DNA of 64,000 bases, taken from Amycolatopsis sp. WQ 127309. Its GTDB lineage: Bacteria; Actinomycetota; Actinomycetes; Mycobacteriales; Pseudonocardiaceae. The stretch lies in the NCBI RefSeq assembly GCF_023023025.1, contig NZ_CP095481.1, positions 5,593,001 to 5,657,000 of the forward strand. Reading direction: 5' to 3'. Under the pieces are notes generated by a model. That model worked only from the letters and a program-made list of their open reading frames with translations, did no database searches and had not been told where the DNA came from. This document shows positions 20,634 through 29,671 of this stretch, piece by piece (the first letter of the stretch is position 1; each line of letters opens with the position of its first letter). The translations under genes were made by a program, and so were the position numbers.

Positions 20634-22030
20634 CGCGGGTCGCCGTCGTCGGGGCGGGCATCTCCGGCCTGACCGCGGCGTACCGGCTGCGGCAGCTGCT
20701 CGGCGCCGGCGCCGAGATCGTCGTCTTCGAGAAGACCCGGACCCCGGGCGGCAAGCTGCGCACGGCCGAGCTGGCCGGCGTGCCCTACGACGTCGGCGCC
20801 GAGGCGTTCCTCGCCCGCCGGCCCGAGATGCTCGCGCTGGTCCGCGAGCTGGGCCTCGACCTCGTCCACCCGACCGGCGCCCGCGCGAAGATCCACGCCG
20901 GCGGCACCGTGACCGGGCTGCCGCCGGGCACCGTGATGGGTGTCCCGGCGTCGGCGGAGTCGGTCGCCGGGGTGCTGTCGGAGGCGGGGCGCCGCGCGGT
21001 CGAGGCCGAGACGTCACTGCCGGAGCTGCGGCTGCCGGGCGGGGACGTGCCGCTGGGGCCGCTGCTGCGCGAGCGGTTCGGCGACGAACTGGTCGACCGG
21101 CTGGTCGACCCGCTGCTGGGCGGCGTCTACGCGGGCGGGGCCGACGGTCTCGGCCTGCGCGCGACCATGCCGGGCCTGGCCGCGGCGGTGGCCGCCGGCG
21201 CGGGGTCGCTGACCGCGGCGGCCGCGTCCCAGCTGCCCGCGTCACCCAGCTCGGCCCCGGTGTTCGGCACGGTCCCCGGCGGCCTGGGCACGGTCGTCGA
21301 CCGGCTGACCGAGCTGTCCGGCGCCGACCTGCGGACCGGGCTGCCGGTGTGCGACATCGAGCGGAACGGCACGAGCTGGCGGCTGCGGATCGGCGCGGCG
21401 CCGACCGCGCACGCGCCCGCGGAGAACACGATCGACGCCGACGCGGTGGTCCTCGCGGTGCCCGCGCCGTCGGCCCGCCGCCTGCTCGCGGACCTGGTGC
21501 CCGCGGCGTCGGCGGCGTTCGGCGAGGTCGAGCTGGCGTCGATGGCGGTGGTCGCGCTGGCCCTGCCACCCGGCACGGAGCTGCCCGCGGCGTCGGGAAT
21601 CCTGATCGGCCAAGGCGAGCGTGACGCGGCGGGCGTGCCGTACGCGGCGAAGGCGTTCACGTTCTCTTCGCGCAAGTGGGCGCACTTCGGCACGGGCCCG
21701 GTCCTGGTCCGCGGCTCGGTGGGGCGCTTCGGCGAGCTGGGCGCGTTGCAGGCGGACGACGTCGAGCTGGTCCGGGTGGTCCGCGACGACCTCGCGCGTC
21801 TCACGGGCATCACGGCGGAACCGGTGGAAACGCTGGTGACCCGCTGGGGTGGCGGCCTGCCGCAGTACGGCACCGGCCACCTGGAGCGGGTGGAGCGCAT
21901 CGAGAAGGCGATCGCCGGGATCCCGGGCCTGGCCGTGGCGGGCGCGACCCTGCACGGTGTCGGGCTGCCGGCGTGCGTGGCGACGGCCGAAGCGGCCGCA
22001 CAGCGGGTGGCCGCGCACCTTTCCGCGTGA
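20630..22030 (+). CDS. hemY: Coproporphyrinogen III / protoporphyrinogen oxidase, FAD-dependent (HemY/CgoX type)
   Basis: A 466-aa flavoenzyme. The FAD-binding GxGxxG motif is at the N-terminus ('[17 protein letters not shown]'), followed by '[14 protein letters not shown]' and the C-terminal FAD contact '[20 protein letters not shown]'. Because hemQ follows, the likely in vivo substrate is coproporphyrinogen III, giving coproporphyrin III in the haem branch used by Gram-positive bacteria; this is inference from context. GTG 20630 is fixed by the overlap with hemE. Confidence 0.93.
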
Positions 22031-22087
22031 GTGCTCTCACGGCTACCCGTGGGGGCGCCCTGCGGGCCTCGGTGACAGGATGGACGT

Positions 22088-22780
22088 ATGGCGCGGGTCA
22101 ACTTCAGCGAGCTCAACGACACCATCCGGTACACCACCTGGTCGGTCTTCCGGATCGAGCCCGGCAGGCTGGGTGAGGACCGCGGGACCGCCGGTCGCGA
22201 GACCACCGAGTACCTCGACGGGCTCGAGGCCAAGGGCGTCGTCGTCCGCGGCGTCTACGACCTTTCCGCGCTGCGGGCCGACGCCGACTACATGATCTGG
22301 TGGCACGCCGAGGAGATCGAGCAGGTCCAGGCCGCCTACGCCGGGTTCCGGCGGACGCCGCTCGGGCGCGCGTCGACGCCGGTCTGGAGCCAGACCGCGC
22401 TGCACCGGCCCGCCGAGTTCAACAAGAGCCACATCCCCGCGTTCCTCGCCGGGGAAGAGGCCCGCAAGTTCATCTGCGTCTACCCGTTCGTCCGCTCCTA
22501 CGAGTGGTACCTGCTGCCGGAGAACGAGCGCCGCAAGATGCTCGCCGACCACGGCAAGGAAGCCCGCGACTACCCGGACGTGCGCGCCAACACCGTCGCG
22601 TCGTTCGCGCTGGGCGACTACGAGTGGATCCTCGCGTTCGAGGCCGACGAGCTGCACCGGATCGTCGACCTCATGCGCCACCTGCGCGGCACCGAGGCGC
22701 GCCTGCACGTGCGCGAAGAGATCCCGTTCTACACCGGCACCCGCGTGCCGCCCGCCGAGCTCGTCGCGGCGCTGCCGTAG
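22088..22780 (+). CDS. hemQ: Coproheme decarboxylase
   Basis: A 230-aa member of the chlorite-dismutase-like fold that turns coproheme into haem b. Motifs: 'WSVFRIEPG' near the start, '[22 protein letters not shown]' region around residues 128-150 with the catalytic Tyr, the proximal His in '[11 protein letters not shown]', and '[13 protein letters not shown]'. ATG 22088 starts the typical '[16 protein letters not shown]'. It sits 57 bases after cgoX and its TAG shares one base with the GTG of the next gene. Confidence 0.94.
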
Positions 22781-25747: not shown

Positions 25748-26086
25748 CTAGCGGCGCCGGAGCCGGGAAACCAGGCCCCGCTTGGGTTTCGGCAGGTGGC
25801 CCGCCGCGATCAGCCACGTGACGAACTCGTCCGCGTACGCGTGCGAATGCTCCGTGGCCTTCTTCGGGCGGCCCGCCGCGAACTGGGCGAACAACGGCCC
25901 GTACCGCTCGCCCAGCGTCTCCGCCAGCTCCGGGCGCTGGTAGGCCAGCACCTTGCCGTGCTTGCGGCGCAACACGTTCGCCTCCACTTTCAACCGTGAA
26001 GGGTCGAAACCCGGCGGGGGCTCGCCGCCGGCCAAGAGGGCGTGCAGCAGCTCCGCCTGCCGCGCCGCCAGCTCCTCGCGGCTCAC
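25748..26086 (-). CDS. SCO6045-like protein, partner gene of the DUF692 enzyme
   Basis: A 112-aa soluble protein: 'ELAARQAELLHALLAGGEPP', 'FDPSRLKVEANVLRRKHGKV' and 'YADEFVTWLIAAGHLPKPKR'. I recognise it as the short protein that accompanies DUF692 in actinobacteria (SCO6045-like). Its GTG overlaps the stop of DUF692 by 4 nt. In characterised DUF692 systems (MbnC, TglI, BufC) a small partner protein recruits the peptide substrate; by position this protein may do the same, which is inference because its sequence is unlike those partners. The basic tail ends in 'RLRRR'. Confidence 0.8.
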   Translation of the reverse strand: MSREELAARQAELLHALLAGGEPPPGFDPSRLKVEANVLRRKHGKVLAYQRPELAETLGERYGPLFAQFAAGRPKKATEHSHAYADEFVTWLIAAGHLPKPKRGLVSRLRRR

Positions 26087-26883
26087 ACCGTCACCGCCCC
26101 CCGGAGCGCGGCCAGCTCCGCCGCCAGCTCGGCGTCGCTCGGGTAGTCGTCGTCGCGTTCCAGCAGGACTCCCGGCGGGTCCGTCCGGCGGCGGAGTTCT
26201 TCCAGCAGCGCGAGGACTTCCGGCAGCACCGGGTGCGCGTGCGTGTCGTGGTAGACGCCGTCGCGCTCGATGCCGCCCGCCATGTGGACGTACGCCAGGC
26301 GCTCCCACGGGATGCCGTCGAGGAACGCCTCCGGGTCGGTGCCGATGTTGCGCGCGTTGGCGTACAGATTGGCGACGTCGATGATCAGCCGGCAGTCCGT
26401 CCGCTCGGTGAGCTCGGTGAGGAACTGCTCCTCGGTGAGCTCGGCGTGCGGCCATTCCAGTACCGCGGCGATGTTCTCCAGCGCGAACGGGACGTCCACA
26501 ATGGACTGCGCGAGGCGCACGTTCGCGACCAGCACGTCCAGCGCCTCCCGGGTGCGGGGGAGCGGCATCAGGTGCCCGGAGTCGAGCCCGCCCGCGCGCA
26601 CGAAGCAGACGTGGTCGCTGACCAGCGGCGCGTCCAGCGCCCGCGCGATCTCCGCGAGGTGCTGGACGCGGCCGGTGTCGAGCGGCTCGGCTCCGCCGAG
26701 CGAGAGCGAGACGGCGTGCGGCAGCACCGGCAGACCGCGCTCCCGCAGCGCGACGAGCGTCTCCGGGAGGTTGTCGTGGTGCAGGTTCTCGGCCACGACC
26801 TCGACCCAGTCCACGCCCGGGAGCCGGGCGATGGACAGGTCGAGCTCGTGCCGCCAGCCGATCCCGATGCCGAGCTCACCCAC
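26083..26883 (-). CDS. DUF692 (MbnB/TglH-like) multinuclear-iron TIM-barrel enzyme
   Basis: A 266-aa TIM-barrel protein of the family whose studied members use two or three irons and O2 to modify cysteine in peptides. Candidate metal ligands are in place: H56 ('LPHAVSLSLGG'), H91 ('VSDHVCFV'), E136/N137 ('FALENIAA'), D169/N172 ('IIDVANLYANARN'), H200 ('YVHMAGG'), D213 and H215 ('YHDTHAHPVLP') and E242 ('LLERDDDYP'). GTG 26883 overlaps the 3' end of the TIGR04222 gene by 8 nt, so it is translated with that Cys-tailed protein. The most economical reading is that it acts on the Cys-rich tails encoded upstream. Confidence 0.87.
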   Translation of the reverse strand: MGELGIGIGWRHELDLSIARLPGVDWVEVVAENLHHDNLPETLVALRERGLPVLPHAVSLSLGGAEPLDTGRVQHLAEIARALDAPLVSDHVCFVRAGGLDSGHLMPLPRTREALDVLVANVRLAQSIVDVPFALENIAAVLEWPHAELTEEQFLTELTERTDCRLIIDVANLYANARNIGTDPEAFLDGIPWERLAYVHMAGGIERDGVYHDTHAHPVLPEVLALLEELRRRTDPPGVLLERDDDYPSDAELAAELAALRGAVTV

Positions 26884-27796
26884 CGCAGCCCCCGCCTCCG
26901 CAGCCACCGCCGCCACCGCACGAAGAACCGCTGCTGCACGACGACGAACTCGAACACGACGACCCGCTGCTGCACGACGACCCCGACGACCCACCGCCGC
27001 CGACCGCGCCCGCGGGCGGCATCAGGGCCGCGCTCAGCTCTTCGTCCGGGTACATCGCCAGGCCGCCGAGGGCGACCGCGGCGACGGCGCCGCCGAGCAG
27101 CACGCCGCCGGCGAGCGCCCCGGCCGGCACCGGCCCGGACGCCGCCGCGCGCGCCTGGCCGAGCAGGCGGTGCCCCGCGGCCGACGGCTGCCGCACGCCG
27201 GTCTTGTTCCGCCGGACCGCGGCCACGATCGTCAGCACGGCCGCGATCAGCACCAGGAACACCAGGACCCCGACCGGCCGGCCCAGTGAGATGCCGTTGA
27301 GCAGCCGGATCACGCCGAGCGCGAGCACGGCCAGCTGCAGGACCAGGCCGAACGTCCGGGCCTGGCGCCGCGCCGCGGCGGACGTCAGCAGTCCCCGCTG
27401 GTCGAGGCCGTCCTCCAGCGCCCGCATGGCCGCGGAGCCGCGGACCTTCGCCCGGATCGTCGCGGTCGTCTTCAGCTGCGCGACGTCGGCGACCGCCTGC
27501 TCCAGCGGCTCCACCGGGCGTGCGCCGGCCTGGCTGATCTGCCGGTAGCTGTTGACCCGCAGCTGGCCGCGTTCGACCAGCGCCGCGATCGCCGCGTCGG
27601 TCGCCCGGTCCGGGCCGCCGGCCAGGAACGCGAGCTGGTAGACACTCGGCGTCGGGCCGGGCTGGGCGTGGTCGGCGCGCATCGCGCGGCTGGCCATGAC
27701 GCCGGACACGACGAGCCGGATCAGCAGGACCGCGCCCAGCAGCGCGATGTAGAGGACCACGAAATCGGGTCCCGAGATGCCCCACGGGTCGTCCAT
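26876..27796 (-). CDS. TIGR04222-domain membrane protein with Cys-Ser-Gly tail (copy B)
   Basis: A 306-aa protein. It opens with 'MDDPWGISGPDFVVLYIALL', the WGI.GP.F signature, and a first membrane segment. A cytoplasmic helical region follows ('LAFLAGGPDRATDAAIAALV'), then two further hydrophobic segments at about 150-195. From about residue 266 the tail is only Gly, Ser and Cys: cysteines at 275, 281, 287, 293 and 299 are exactly six apart, then 304. This regular array in a 41-residue low-complexity end suggests a scaffold for metal binding or a modified peptide. It is followed, with overlap, by the DUF692 gene. Confidence 0.85.
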   Translation of the reverse strand: MDDPWGISGPDFVVLYIALLGAVLLIRLVVSGVMASRAMRADHAQPGPTPSVYQLAFLAGGPDRATDAAIAALVERGQLRVNSYRQISQAGARPVEPLEQAVADVAQLKTTATIRAKVRGSAAMRALEDGLDQRGLLTSAAARRQARTFGLVLQLAVLALGVIRLLNGISLGRPVGVLVFLVLIAAVLTIVAAVRRNKTGVRQPSAAGHRLLGQARAAASGPVPAGALAGGVLLGGAVAAVALGGLAMYPDEELSAALMPPAGAVGGGGSSGSSCSSGSSCSSSSSCSSGSSCGGGGGCGGGGCGG

Positions 27797-27862
27797 CGCC
27801 CGTCTCCCCTCAGTTGATGCCGGTTACCGTAGCTGTGAGACGCAGCAGGTCGCGTCGGCGTT

Positions 27863-28783
27863 TCAACCGCCGCAGCCCCCGCCGCCACCGCCGCCGCAGG
27901 AGCTGCCGCCACCCCCACCGCCGCCGCAGGAGCTGCCGCCCCCACCGCAGGAACTGCCGCCGTAGTAGCCGACGGCCGCGCCGCCCCCGGCGCTCGCCCA
28001 GCGCGAGCGGCGCGCCCGGCGGTCGTAGGTCTTGGCGGCGGCGTGCGTGGCCCGGCTGACGGCCACGCGGATGTCCTTGTCCGGGTAGGTGACGAGCCCG
28101 CCGCTCGCGACGGTGCCGGTCGCGCCGGACGTCAGCGTCCCGGTCCGGCGGGCCTCCTCGGCGTCCGCGCGCCCGGCGCCGGTGGCCTTCGCCTCCGGCG
28201 CGTTCGCGGCCCGCACGGTGACGACGACCGCCGCGACCAGGTTCAGCACGAGCAGTCCGAGCAGGTAGCCGACGGCGTGGCCGGCGCTCGCCCCGGCGAC
28301 CAGCCGCGCGATGCCGAGCGCGAACAGCACCCAGTACGCGATCGACGTGGCGGTCCAGGTCAGCCGCAGTTTCCGGGTGTCGGCGAGCAGGCCGCGGCCG
28401 ACCAGCCCGGCCGCCAGCTCGGTCACCGACCGGTGCTGGGAGACGGCCGCGCGCACCCGGTCGACCGAGCTGCCGGTCTTGCCGACGCGGTCGACCGCGA
28501 CGCGGCCCAGTTCGTCCGCCGGCCGGCCCGTGACGCGGTGCAGCCGGCCGGTGCCGTCCATCCGGACGAACTGGCGCTCCAGCAGCCCCGCGACGACGAC
28601 TTCGCCGACGCGGCCGGGCCCGCCCGTCAGCAGGGCCAGCTCTTCGACGCTCCGGGGTGCCCCGCCCGCGTGGCCGCGCGCCAGCAGGCTGGTGCGCACC
28701 ACCGCGTAGAGCAGGGGAATGAGAAGCAGGCCCAGGTAGAGGCCCGTGAACAGCGGTCCGGGAATGCCCCACGTGTCGGTCAT
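27863..28783 (-). CDS. TIGR04222-domain membrane protein with Cys-Gly tail (copy A)
   Basis: A 306-aa tandem paralogue of copy B and the first gene of the operon. The head 'MTDTWGIPGPLFTGLYLGLL' shows the same WGI.GP.F signature and first membrane segment; two hydrophobic segments lie at about 145-190. The tail from about 271 is nearly pure Gly/Ser with cysteines at 279, 286, 296 and 304 in SSC and GC contexts. Copies A and B have the same length but different tails, so tail composition, not sequence, seems conserved. Copy B begins 66 bases later. Confidence 0.85.
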   Translation of the reverse strand: MTDTWGIPGPLFTGLYLGLLLIPLLYAVVRTSLLARGHAGGAPRSVEELALLTGGPGRVGEVVVAGLLERQFVRMDGTGRLHRVTGRPADELGRVAVDRVGKTGSSVDRVRAAVSQHRSVTELAAGLVGRGLLADTRKLRLTWTATSIAYWVLFALGIARLVAGASAGHAVGYLLGLLVLNLVAAVVVTVRAANAPEAKATGAGRADAEEARRTGTLTSGATGTVASGGLVTYPDKDIRVAVSRATHAAAKTYDRRARRSRWASAGGGAAVGYYGGSSCGGGGSSCGGGGGGGSSCGGGGGGGCGG

Positions 28784-28870: not shown

Positions 28871-29293
28871 TTAGGACTGCGGTTCCAGTTTCAGTGAGAT
28901 CGAGTTGATGCAGTAGCGCTGGTCGGTCGGGGTCGCGTACCCCTCGCCTTCGAAGACGTGCCCGAGGTGGCTGTGGCAGGAGCCGCAGAGCACCTCGATC
29001 CGCTTCATGCCCATGGCCCGGTCTTCCCGGAGCAGGACGGCGTCGGAGTCGGCCGGGTCGTAGAACGACGGCCAGCCGCAGTGGCTCTCGAACTTCGTGT
29101 CGCTGCGGAACAGCTCGGCACCACAGGCGCGGCAGGCGTAGACGCCGGTCGTCTTGGTGTCGGTGTACTCGCCGGTGAACGGCCGTTCGGTGCCGGCCTG
29201 GCGGAGTACGGCGTACTCCTCCGGGCCCAGCTCCGCCCGCCATTCCTGCTCGGACTTCACGACGCGAGGGGTGGCGCCGACAACGGGTTTCAT
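28871..29293 (-). CDS. msrB: Peptide-methionine (R)-S-oxide reductase
   Basis: A 140-aa enzyme that repairs methionine-R-sulfoxide. Zinc-binding CxxC pairs are in 'YACRACGAELF' and 'VLCGSCHSHLGHVF'; the catalytic Cys is in 'QRYCINSISL'. 'HCGWPSFYDP' is the family signature. I place the start at ATG 29293 ('MKPVVGATPRV'); in-frame GTGs at 29302 and 29311 are alternatives. It is separated from the TIGR04222 operon by 87 bases and transcribed in the same direction, so co-expression with the Cys-rich proteins is possible. Confidence 0.93.
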   Translation of the reverse strand: MKPVVGATPRVVKSEQEWRAELGPEEYAVLRQAGTERPFTGEYTDTKTTGVYACRACGAELFRSDTKFESHCGWPSFYDPADSDAVLLREDRAMGMKRIEVLCGSCHSHLGHVFEGEGYATPTDQRYCINSISLKLEPQS

Positions 29294-29312
29294 ACCTTTC
29301 ACCCGATCCACG

Positions 29313-29618
29313 TTACGCCGCGAGCCACGCGAGGGCGTGCACCACGATGTCCCATGCGGCGACTATCACTCCCAGGACGATGAGCACGACGATCAGGGCG
29401 GACACCCAGTAGCGCAGGCCACCGAGGCGGTTGCTGGAATCGGCGAAGTCGGCGACGCCGTCGAGCGCGGCTTCGATCGTGAAGTTCGGACCGGATCGTT
29501 CGATCCGGTCGAGGTGCTCGGCGAACGCGCGCGCCTCCGGGTCAAACGGGTCCAGCCCGACCAGGTCCTCGTGGAAGCGAGGGTTCCCGCCCGGCGGCGA
29601 AGCTCCGCTCTCGGCCAT
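29313..29618 (-). CDS. Small C-terminally anchored membrane protein
   Basis: A 101-aa protein from ATG 29618 (an in-frame ATG at 29636 is the alternative). The first 70 residues are soluble and acidic ('DPFDPEARAFAEHLDRIERS'), followed by one membrane segment of about 25 residues near the end ('ALIVVLIVLGVIVAAWDIVV') and a very short tail. I do not recognise a named family. It lies 20 bases upstream of msrB in the same direction. Confidence 0.7.
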   Translation of the reverse strand: MAESGASPPGGNPRFHEDLVGLDPFDPEARAFAEHLDRIERSGPNFTIEAALDGVADFADSSNRLGGLRYWVSALIVVLIVLGVIVAAWDIVVHALAWLAA

Positions 29619-29671
29619 ACCACCACGGTAGGCCATCGGGACCGCTCAGCCCACCAGCGGCGCGTTAAGTC

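Follow-up and report, generated by a model that had tools for sequence, protein, structure and literature searches.

MNIO (DUF692) proteins are iron enzymes of a kind that chemically alters cysteines. Here we describe a four-gene MNIO operon of the soil actinobacterium Amycolatopsis sp. WQ 127309, which lies in a 64,000-nucleotide stretch of contig NZ_CP095481.1 (positions 5,593,001 to 5,657,000; hereafter the window) and encodes two membrane proteins of the TIGR04222 family, the MNIO, and a protein of 112 amino acids (aa). The closest described systems are the clusters of Antoine et al. (2025), who proposed that MNIOs assisted by PME-type 2 partners act on TIGR04222 proteins (PMC12452194); the prediction is already in print, and thus the pairing, which the initial annotation of this DNA left open as possibly undescribed, is not new. 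According to the accessible text of that paper, more than a quarter of TIGR04222 proteins have no C-proximal Cys, 490 of 1372 TIGR04222 genomes (a third) have no MNIO genes, and the modifications and roles of these systems await investigation. The window has in common with those clusters the protein families, the TIGR04222 gene before the MNIO gene, the partner after it, and the Ser/Gly/Cys tails. However, the paper puts the large domain ("large predicted extra-cytoplasmic domains") and the tail outside, whereas in our analysis the domain is predicted to be inside and the tails fall into two classes. What we add is the identity of the partner through a natural gene fusion, the Cys spacing of the tails, the co-occurrence of the genes within the bacterial family, the membrane topology, and the msrB/hemQ chromosomal site. 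In the accessible text of PMC12452194, from which the words "spacing" and "sulfoxide" are absent, we found no mention of the spacing rule, of a fusion between MNIO and PME2, or of the msrB/hemQ neighbourhood.

Other MNIO systems offer further points of comparison. Bufferins and captophorins (Buf1, Buf2, and EGKCG precursors, with PME-type 1 partners) share with the TIGR04222 tails a small residue after Cys and repeated Cys motifs, but in the window the candidate substrates are multipass membrane proteins, the partner is of PME-type 2, and no Lys stands beside Cys. The best NCBIfam match of the window MNIO is the BufB model NF050167, but its 204.4 bits stay below the cut-off of 310, and the enzyme does not classify as a BufB. 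TglHI (3-thiaglutamate) and MbnBC (methanobactin) belong to the same enzyme superfamily and also require a partner protein; unlike the window system, they use free peptide substrates, and the window MNIO is distant from the MbnB model TIGR04159 (46 bits, cut-off 325). Captophorin MNIOs convert Cys to 5-thiooxazole, the products bind copper, and FonB, a 5-thiooxazole-forming MNIO, prefers a small residue after the Cys, according to the accessible part of PMC12668002. For the window, we think it probable, though well short of certain, that the MNIO and its PME-type 2 (PME2) partner oxidatively modify the tail Cys residues of the membrane-anchored TIGR04222 proteins, perhaps to 5-thiooxazoles, which would serve as tethered soft-metal ligands.

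The operon and its enzyme

The coordinates and translations (Table 1) agree with the four-gene minus-strand operon as first annotated, including the overlaps of 8 nt between the copy B and MNIO genes and of 4 nt between the MNIO and 112-aa genes; the Cys positions in the two tails, which are composed of Gly, Ser, and Cys only, were likewise as given there. The family assignments also held, with scores above the curated cut-offs for the two TIGR04222 proteins (99.1 bits for copy A and 153 bits for copy B against NCBIfam TIGR04222, cut-off 43) and for the single DUF692 enzyme (281 bits against Pfam PF05114, cut-off 25). These are the only two TIGR04222 matches and the only PF05114 match in the 11.13-Mb single-contig genome. 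The four nearest MNIOs among the loci of named organisms (best 80 of 471 candidates) are all from Amycolatopsis and 94-96% identical.

Table 1 Features of the operon and of its flanks, in window coordinates
Feature	Position	Strand	Description and basis
TIGR04222 copy A	27863..28783	minus	306 aa; translation, NCBIfam match
Gly/Ser/Cys tail of copy A	27866..27961	minus	residues 275-306; Cys 279, 286, 296, 304; translation
TIGR04222 copy B	26876..27796	minus	306 aa; translation, NCBIfam match
Gly/Ser/Cys tail of copy B	26879..27001	minus	residues 266-306; Cys 275, 281, 287, 293, 299, 304; translation
MNIO (DUF692) gene	26083..26883	minus	266 aa, GTG start 26883; PF05114 match
PME-type 2 partner gene	25748..26086	minus	112 aa, GTG start 26086; DUF2063-related
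msrB, peptide-methionine (R)-S-oxide reductase	28871..29311	minus	just upstream of the operon, outside the operon proper; TIGR00357, 158 bits
hemQ-like gene	22082..22774	plus	other flank of the operon; 68% identical to HemQ of locus L195, tblastn
Protoporphyrinogen-oxidase-like gene	20723..21970	plus	adjoins hemQ; 44% identity, tblastn
Small predicted membrane protein	29313-29636		upstream of msrB

By sequence, the window MNIO matches the structures 3bww and 8hci, the latter of TglH. Its motif residues were compared in 119 TIGR04222-linked MNIOs, where linked means that the TIGR04222 gene lies within 7 kb of the MNIO and on the same strand; MNIO matches below 150 bits were excluded from linkage, and those below 300 bits from the residue conservation and from the PME2-neighbour counts given below. 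H56 is conserved in 99% of these enzymes, and H91, E136, D169, N172, H200, D213, H215, E242, and D244 in 100%; the iron ligands are presumably among them. The D90 position is occupied by Asp in 74% and by Glu in 25%, and D244 is followed by Asp in 71% and by Gly in 23%. Judging from the ERD motif, D244 may be the counterpart of Asp249, the catalytic base of FonB (PMC12668002), FonB itself lying outside the alignment.

The partner protein and its natural fusion to the MNIO

Judged by its sequence and position, the 112-aa protein is the PME partner of the MNIO, because ten of ten MNIOs in a Streptomyces-type group of loci (f5) are natural MNIO-PME2 fusions. The protein matches PF09836 (DUF2063) from end to end with an E value of 0.026, and its 15.2 bits, below the cut-off of 27.2, do not make it a PME-type 1 protein. 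PF09836 also appeared at E <= 1 in 30 of its 59 aligned relatives, the best value being 7.3e-7. A DUF2063-like protein that stays below the signature and is encoded directly downstream of the MNIO with a 4-nt overlap corresponds to PME-type 2. Sequence searches of the PDB with the protein gave no match.

The fetched loci and the window together contain 130 MNIO open reading frames (ORFs). A PME2-like ORF directly follows 112 of them, and in 10 more, all of the f5 group, the MNIO frame itself runs on into a PME2 domain (L192, L194-L200, L211, and L212; e.g., L195:4119-5789). The remaining 8 MNIOs have neither the ORF nor the fusion (L092, L177, L213-L217, and L221). When a profile was built from 30 short separate PME2 proteins, it matched all ten f5 MNIOs at near full length and with 83-97 bits. 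The gene content of f5 matches that of the loci from named Streptomyces, and 20 of the 23 latter loci carry the fusion as well, with two ORFs in L317 (S. eurocidicus) and no match in two cut-off loci. At the level of sequence, the fusion is good evidence that MNIO and PME2 work together, and as a single-polypeptide enzyme it should be easier to assay. A contig of Saccharothrix sp. NRRL B-16314 (L263) has at the same position a 115-aa ORF that is 42% identical to the window protein over 102 residues. Model A of PME-type 2 is a 115-aa protein of this strain (PMC12452194), and the two are likened here by strain and length, not letter by letter against the accession.

In 30 of 33 Streptomyces-type loci, a gene for a PTH2-domain protein (e.g., L198:2478-3194) lies close to the fused MNIO, a combination that resembles the published "adjamnio-II" arrangement (PMC12452194).

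Cysteine spacing in the tails

Of the 270 TIGR04222 proteins compared, 222 have at least two tail Cys residues, the definition of the tail, like the in/out thresholds used below, being our own. Spacings of 1 or 2 residues never occur among these 222 proteins (195 expected on shuffling), while a spacing of six residues occurs 223 times against 56 expected. The same pattern was obtained with 90 tails thinned to below 50% identity, in which spacings of 1-2 were again absent (75 expected on per-tail shuffling), a spacing of 6 was counted 96 times (22 expected), and 0 of 1000 shuffles matched either value. The Cys spacing of the tails is not due to chance. The comparison bears out a conserved spacing, with a minimum of 3 and a mode of 6; the exact six-residue step seen in copy B is more frequent in the family than any other spacing, but it is not a fixed rule.

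Spacing of this kind would be expected if each Cys is handled as a separate site. Gly or Ser directly follows 397 of the 401 tail Cys residues in the thinned set, in a tail background that is already 93% Gly/Ser. Two Cys residues never lie within two residues of each other, and this, together with the Gly or Ser that follows, fits one modification per Cys, a precise prediction that the spacing rule offers.

For these comparisons, each gene was read as its longest ORF, which gives only approximate N-termini. Left out were locus L112, which is a short and wrongly set duplicate of L122, one protein sharing its last 100 residues with another, and TIGR04222 matches below 70 bits on a purpose-built profile, among them two second copies with a single Cys (L208 and L209). 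In the f5 group, each of the four unlinked second copies (L206 and L208-L210) carries a single Cys close to its end. Very regular SSCSSG-type tails were seen on TIGR04222 genes distant from the MNIO in L148, L153, L158, L173, L174, L178, and L191.

Co-occurrence of TIGR04222, MNIO, and Cys tails

The co-occurrence of TIGR04222 and DUF692 is strong. Across 249 genomes of the family Pseudonocardiaceae, TIGR04222 exceeded its cut-off in 150, and PF05114 was matched in 146; 143 genomes had both, 7 had TIGR04222 only, and 3 had an MNIO only. The corresponding numbers in 396 genomes of the phylum were 16 and 20, with 15 shared, and the sole TIGR04222-only genome (G028) is a fragmented assembly with the match at a contig end.

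At the level of loci, 243 of the 271 TIGR04222 ORFs in fetched loci are linked to an MNIO, including L129, whose MNIO is broken. Among the 28 unlinked ORFs, 25 come from genomes that encode an MNIO at another site, and the unlinked loci G566 and G522, with the MNIO at a contig end, may truly be linked. At least two of the last 50 residues are Cys in 203 of the 243 linked ORFs and in 23 of the 28 that are unlinked. The possibility that such tails usually occur without DUF692 therefore did not materialize, as 203 of the 226 Cys-tailed ORFs are linked.

The best-scoring matches listed, covering 116 of the 150 family genomes over the TIGR04222 cut-off, were read in detail. At least one tail with two or more Cys residues is present in 112 of 112 genomes whose PF05114 match is not visibly broken. 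Four MNIO-less genomes (G413, G501, G556, and G581) have zero tail Cys, and the MNIO-less G543 has a 192-aa TIGR04222 ORF with one Cys near its end. The MNIO genes of G445 and G576 are broken, with three frames in one and an unmatched middle stretch in the other; in G445 (G445:C1:396224-396998) the surviving TIGR04222 tail has 1 Cys.

Membrane topology

Copies A and B are both multipass by hydropathy and by AlphaFold2. Hydropathy gives copy A three predicted transmembrane (TM) helices and a K/R-rich segment ahead of the tail, and copy B three TM helices, a fourth hydrophobic segment (about 225-245), and an acidic flank ahead of the tail. In the AlphaFold2 models, copy A (mean predicted local distance difference test score, pLDDT, 85.9) has helices at 9-36, 136-167, and 172-193 and a confident non-TM continuation to 265, while the fourth segment of copy B (mean pLDDT 78.0) is of low confidence and not built as a TM helix. 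The mean pLDDT is below 50 in both tails.

Within the TIGR04222 family, K and R residues are sparse in the N-terminus and the TM2-TM3 loop and dense after TM1, before TM2, and after TM3. The charge vote could be scored for 231 of the 270 proteins, and 227 came out as N-out with the large loop domain cytoplasmic; such charge patterns place the main domain of these proteins, as a prediction, in the cytoplasm. The hydropathy of the fourth segment is negatively correlated with the charge before the tail (r = -0.63 in the 222 relatives with at least two tail Cys), that is, the pre-tail residues tend to be acidic where the fourth segment is hydrophobic and basic where such a segment is missing. The 222 tails comprise 98 "out", 80 "in", and 44 ambiguous cases. 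Both classes are present in 28 of 121 MNIO-linked loci, "out" without "in" in 41, "in" without "out" in 27, and neither in 25. For the window, these features suggest that tail A is cytoplasmic and tail B outside; because AlphaFold2 builds no fourth helix in copy B, the placement of tail B comes from hydropathy and charge alone. Among the 23 unlinked Cys-tailed copies, the "tail outside" class is predicted for 18.

Proposed mechanism and alternative explanations

In the mechanism that we favour, the operon would make membrane-anchored substrates with disordered Gly/Ser/Cys tails, and the MNIO and its DUF2063-like PME-type 2 partner would modify the tail oxidatively, one Cys after another, probably in the cytoplasm, before access to the tail is lost. 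If the 5-thiooxazole chemistry extends by analogy to the TIGR04222 tails, the likeliest product would be a 5-thiooxazole, or a related heterocycle/thiol pair, at every spaced Cys, and the membrane would then hold a fixed line of ligands for soft, copper-like metals, akin to the bufferins and captophorins but unable to diffuse. Should the tails be modified, the MNIO would act on the C-terminal segment of a full-size membrane protein and not on a free peptide, the idea of ribosomally synthesized and post-translationally modified peptides would widen to membrane-bound proteins, and a function would be found for an operon present in 143 of 249 sampled family genomes. The product may also be something else, such as an oxazolone/thioamide, a modification of the TglH type, or a crosslink, and may serve in redox or heme-linked stress and not in copper handling. 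This sub-case of the same reading is possible but doubtful: the location of the operon between msrB and hemQ speaks for it, as does the H2O2 induction of SCO6045 (see below) if that gene is the homologue of the partner gene, whereas nothing direct favours any particular alternative product.

The initial annotation had suggested that the tail is the DUF692 substrate and that a small partner helps in its modification, which gains from the co-occurrence, the Cys spacing, the DUF2063-related partner, the fusion, and the conserved MNIO residues, but several observations weigh on the other side. Cys tails also occur outside the operon, as 23 of 28 unlinked copies have at least two tail Cys residues. 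They are retained in the MNIO-less genomes G491 and G499 (both fragmented assemblies), and the TIGR04222 gene adjacent to the broken MNIO of G576 (G576:C10:131838-132220) keeps 3 tail Cys. Kinship of the genomes inflates the p-values for co-occurrence. In the first sample, a Cys tail is missing from 6 of the 8 TIGR04222 proteins linked to f5 MNIOs (L194, L195, and L197-L200) and present in 2 (L192 and L196), which implies either another MNIO substrate in these loci or another role for the membrane protein; the f5 MNIOs L211 and L212 come with no TIGR04222 match, and Cys-free paralogues occur inside arrays such as L261-L263. In addition, the tail Cys has other neighbouring residues than those in the EGKCG/Lys-Cys motifs of characterised 5-thiooxazole substrates, the partner is of PME-type 2 and not of type 1, and no modification or metal on TIGR04222 tails was found in the accessible literature. 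Some kb from the MNIO, 7 of 10 f5 loci and 8 named loci (e.g., L198:631-822 and L197:11620-11835) contain a conserved ORF that encodes about 63 aa, six of them Cys, with two CxxC pairs; it has no Pfam or NCBIfam match and looks zinc-ribbon-like by eye, but it could be a substrate of the MNIO. As for the 23 named Streptomyces loci, a TIGR04222 ORF with at least 5 Cys in the last 50 residues lies near the MNIO in 14, there is none in 7, and 2 gave no result.

Several of these points also feed the explanation that the tails keep plain, unmodified thiols, which bind metal or form disulfides, while the MNIO acts on another, unrecognised substrate and the TIGR04222 protein serves as a platform or transporter. 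This explanation can draw on the Cys-free f5 proteins, on the six-Cys ORF, on the Cys tails of some MNIO-less genomes, and on the 48 of 270 TIGR04222 proteins with fewer than two tail Cys, 43 of which are MNIO-linked. It is unlikely, although by no means negligible, as a Cys tail accompanies the MNIO in all 112 family genomes read with the enzyme, the tails are Cys-free in 4 of the 7 genomes without it, and the six-Cys ORF does not adjoin the MNIO and turned up in no loci other than those of f5 and of named Streptomyces. That the tails are low-complexity spacers, in which Cys drifts and regularity arises from DNA repeat slippage, is very improbable, for the low complexity, the variable tail length, the range of 0 to 12 Cys across the family, and the repeated 18-nt units seen by eye in the copy B tail would fit it, but Cys makes up 12% of tail residues, tail Cys tracks the MNIO within the window's family, and spacings of 1 and 2 are absent even from the thinned set.

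Chromosomal neighbourhood

The genes around the operon were compared in sampled linked loci (set 1) and in the loci of named organisms, the best 80 of 471 candidates (set 2); the two sets overlap, with at least 25 loci sharing an MNIO, and are not independent. The msrB gene was found in 80 of 113 non-Streptomyces linked loci of set 1, in 49 of 57 non-Streptomyces loci of set 2, and in 0 of 33 Streptomyces-type loci, and in the 80 loci of set 1 it always lies upstream on the same strand with a median gap of 187 nt. The fetched flanks contain hemQ in 28 of 113, 32 of 57, and 28 of 33 loci, respectively; of the 36 set-1 loci counted, 34 have it on the opposite strand. Because the flanks reach only about 6 kb, all these counts are lower bounds. 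A literature search for at least two of hemQ, msrB, and DUF692 together found nothing. From this neighbourhood, we infer that the operon is a resident of a conserved chromosomal site and not a mobile cluster.

We also considered whether copy A (three TM helices, tail inside) and copy B (four TM helices, tail outside) might form a fixed two-sided membrane metal/redox buffer or relay, with rows of modified-Cys ligands on both tails, a single MNIO-PME2 maturing both, and genes for methionine-sulfoxide repair and heme synthesis beside them. As a complete picture, this is rather improbable.

The 112-aa protein was labelled SCO6045-like in the initial annotation, and on that label alone, which is unconfirmed, we assume SCO6045 to be its Streptomyces homologue. 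The gene numbered SCO6045 in S. coelicolor showed 3-fold induction by H2O2 (PMC4991794). The small predicted membrane protein upstream of msrB matches no family of Pfam or NCBIfam at E <= 0.01, and a counterpart is present in 76 of the 113 non-Streptomyces linked loci of set 1.

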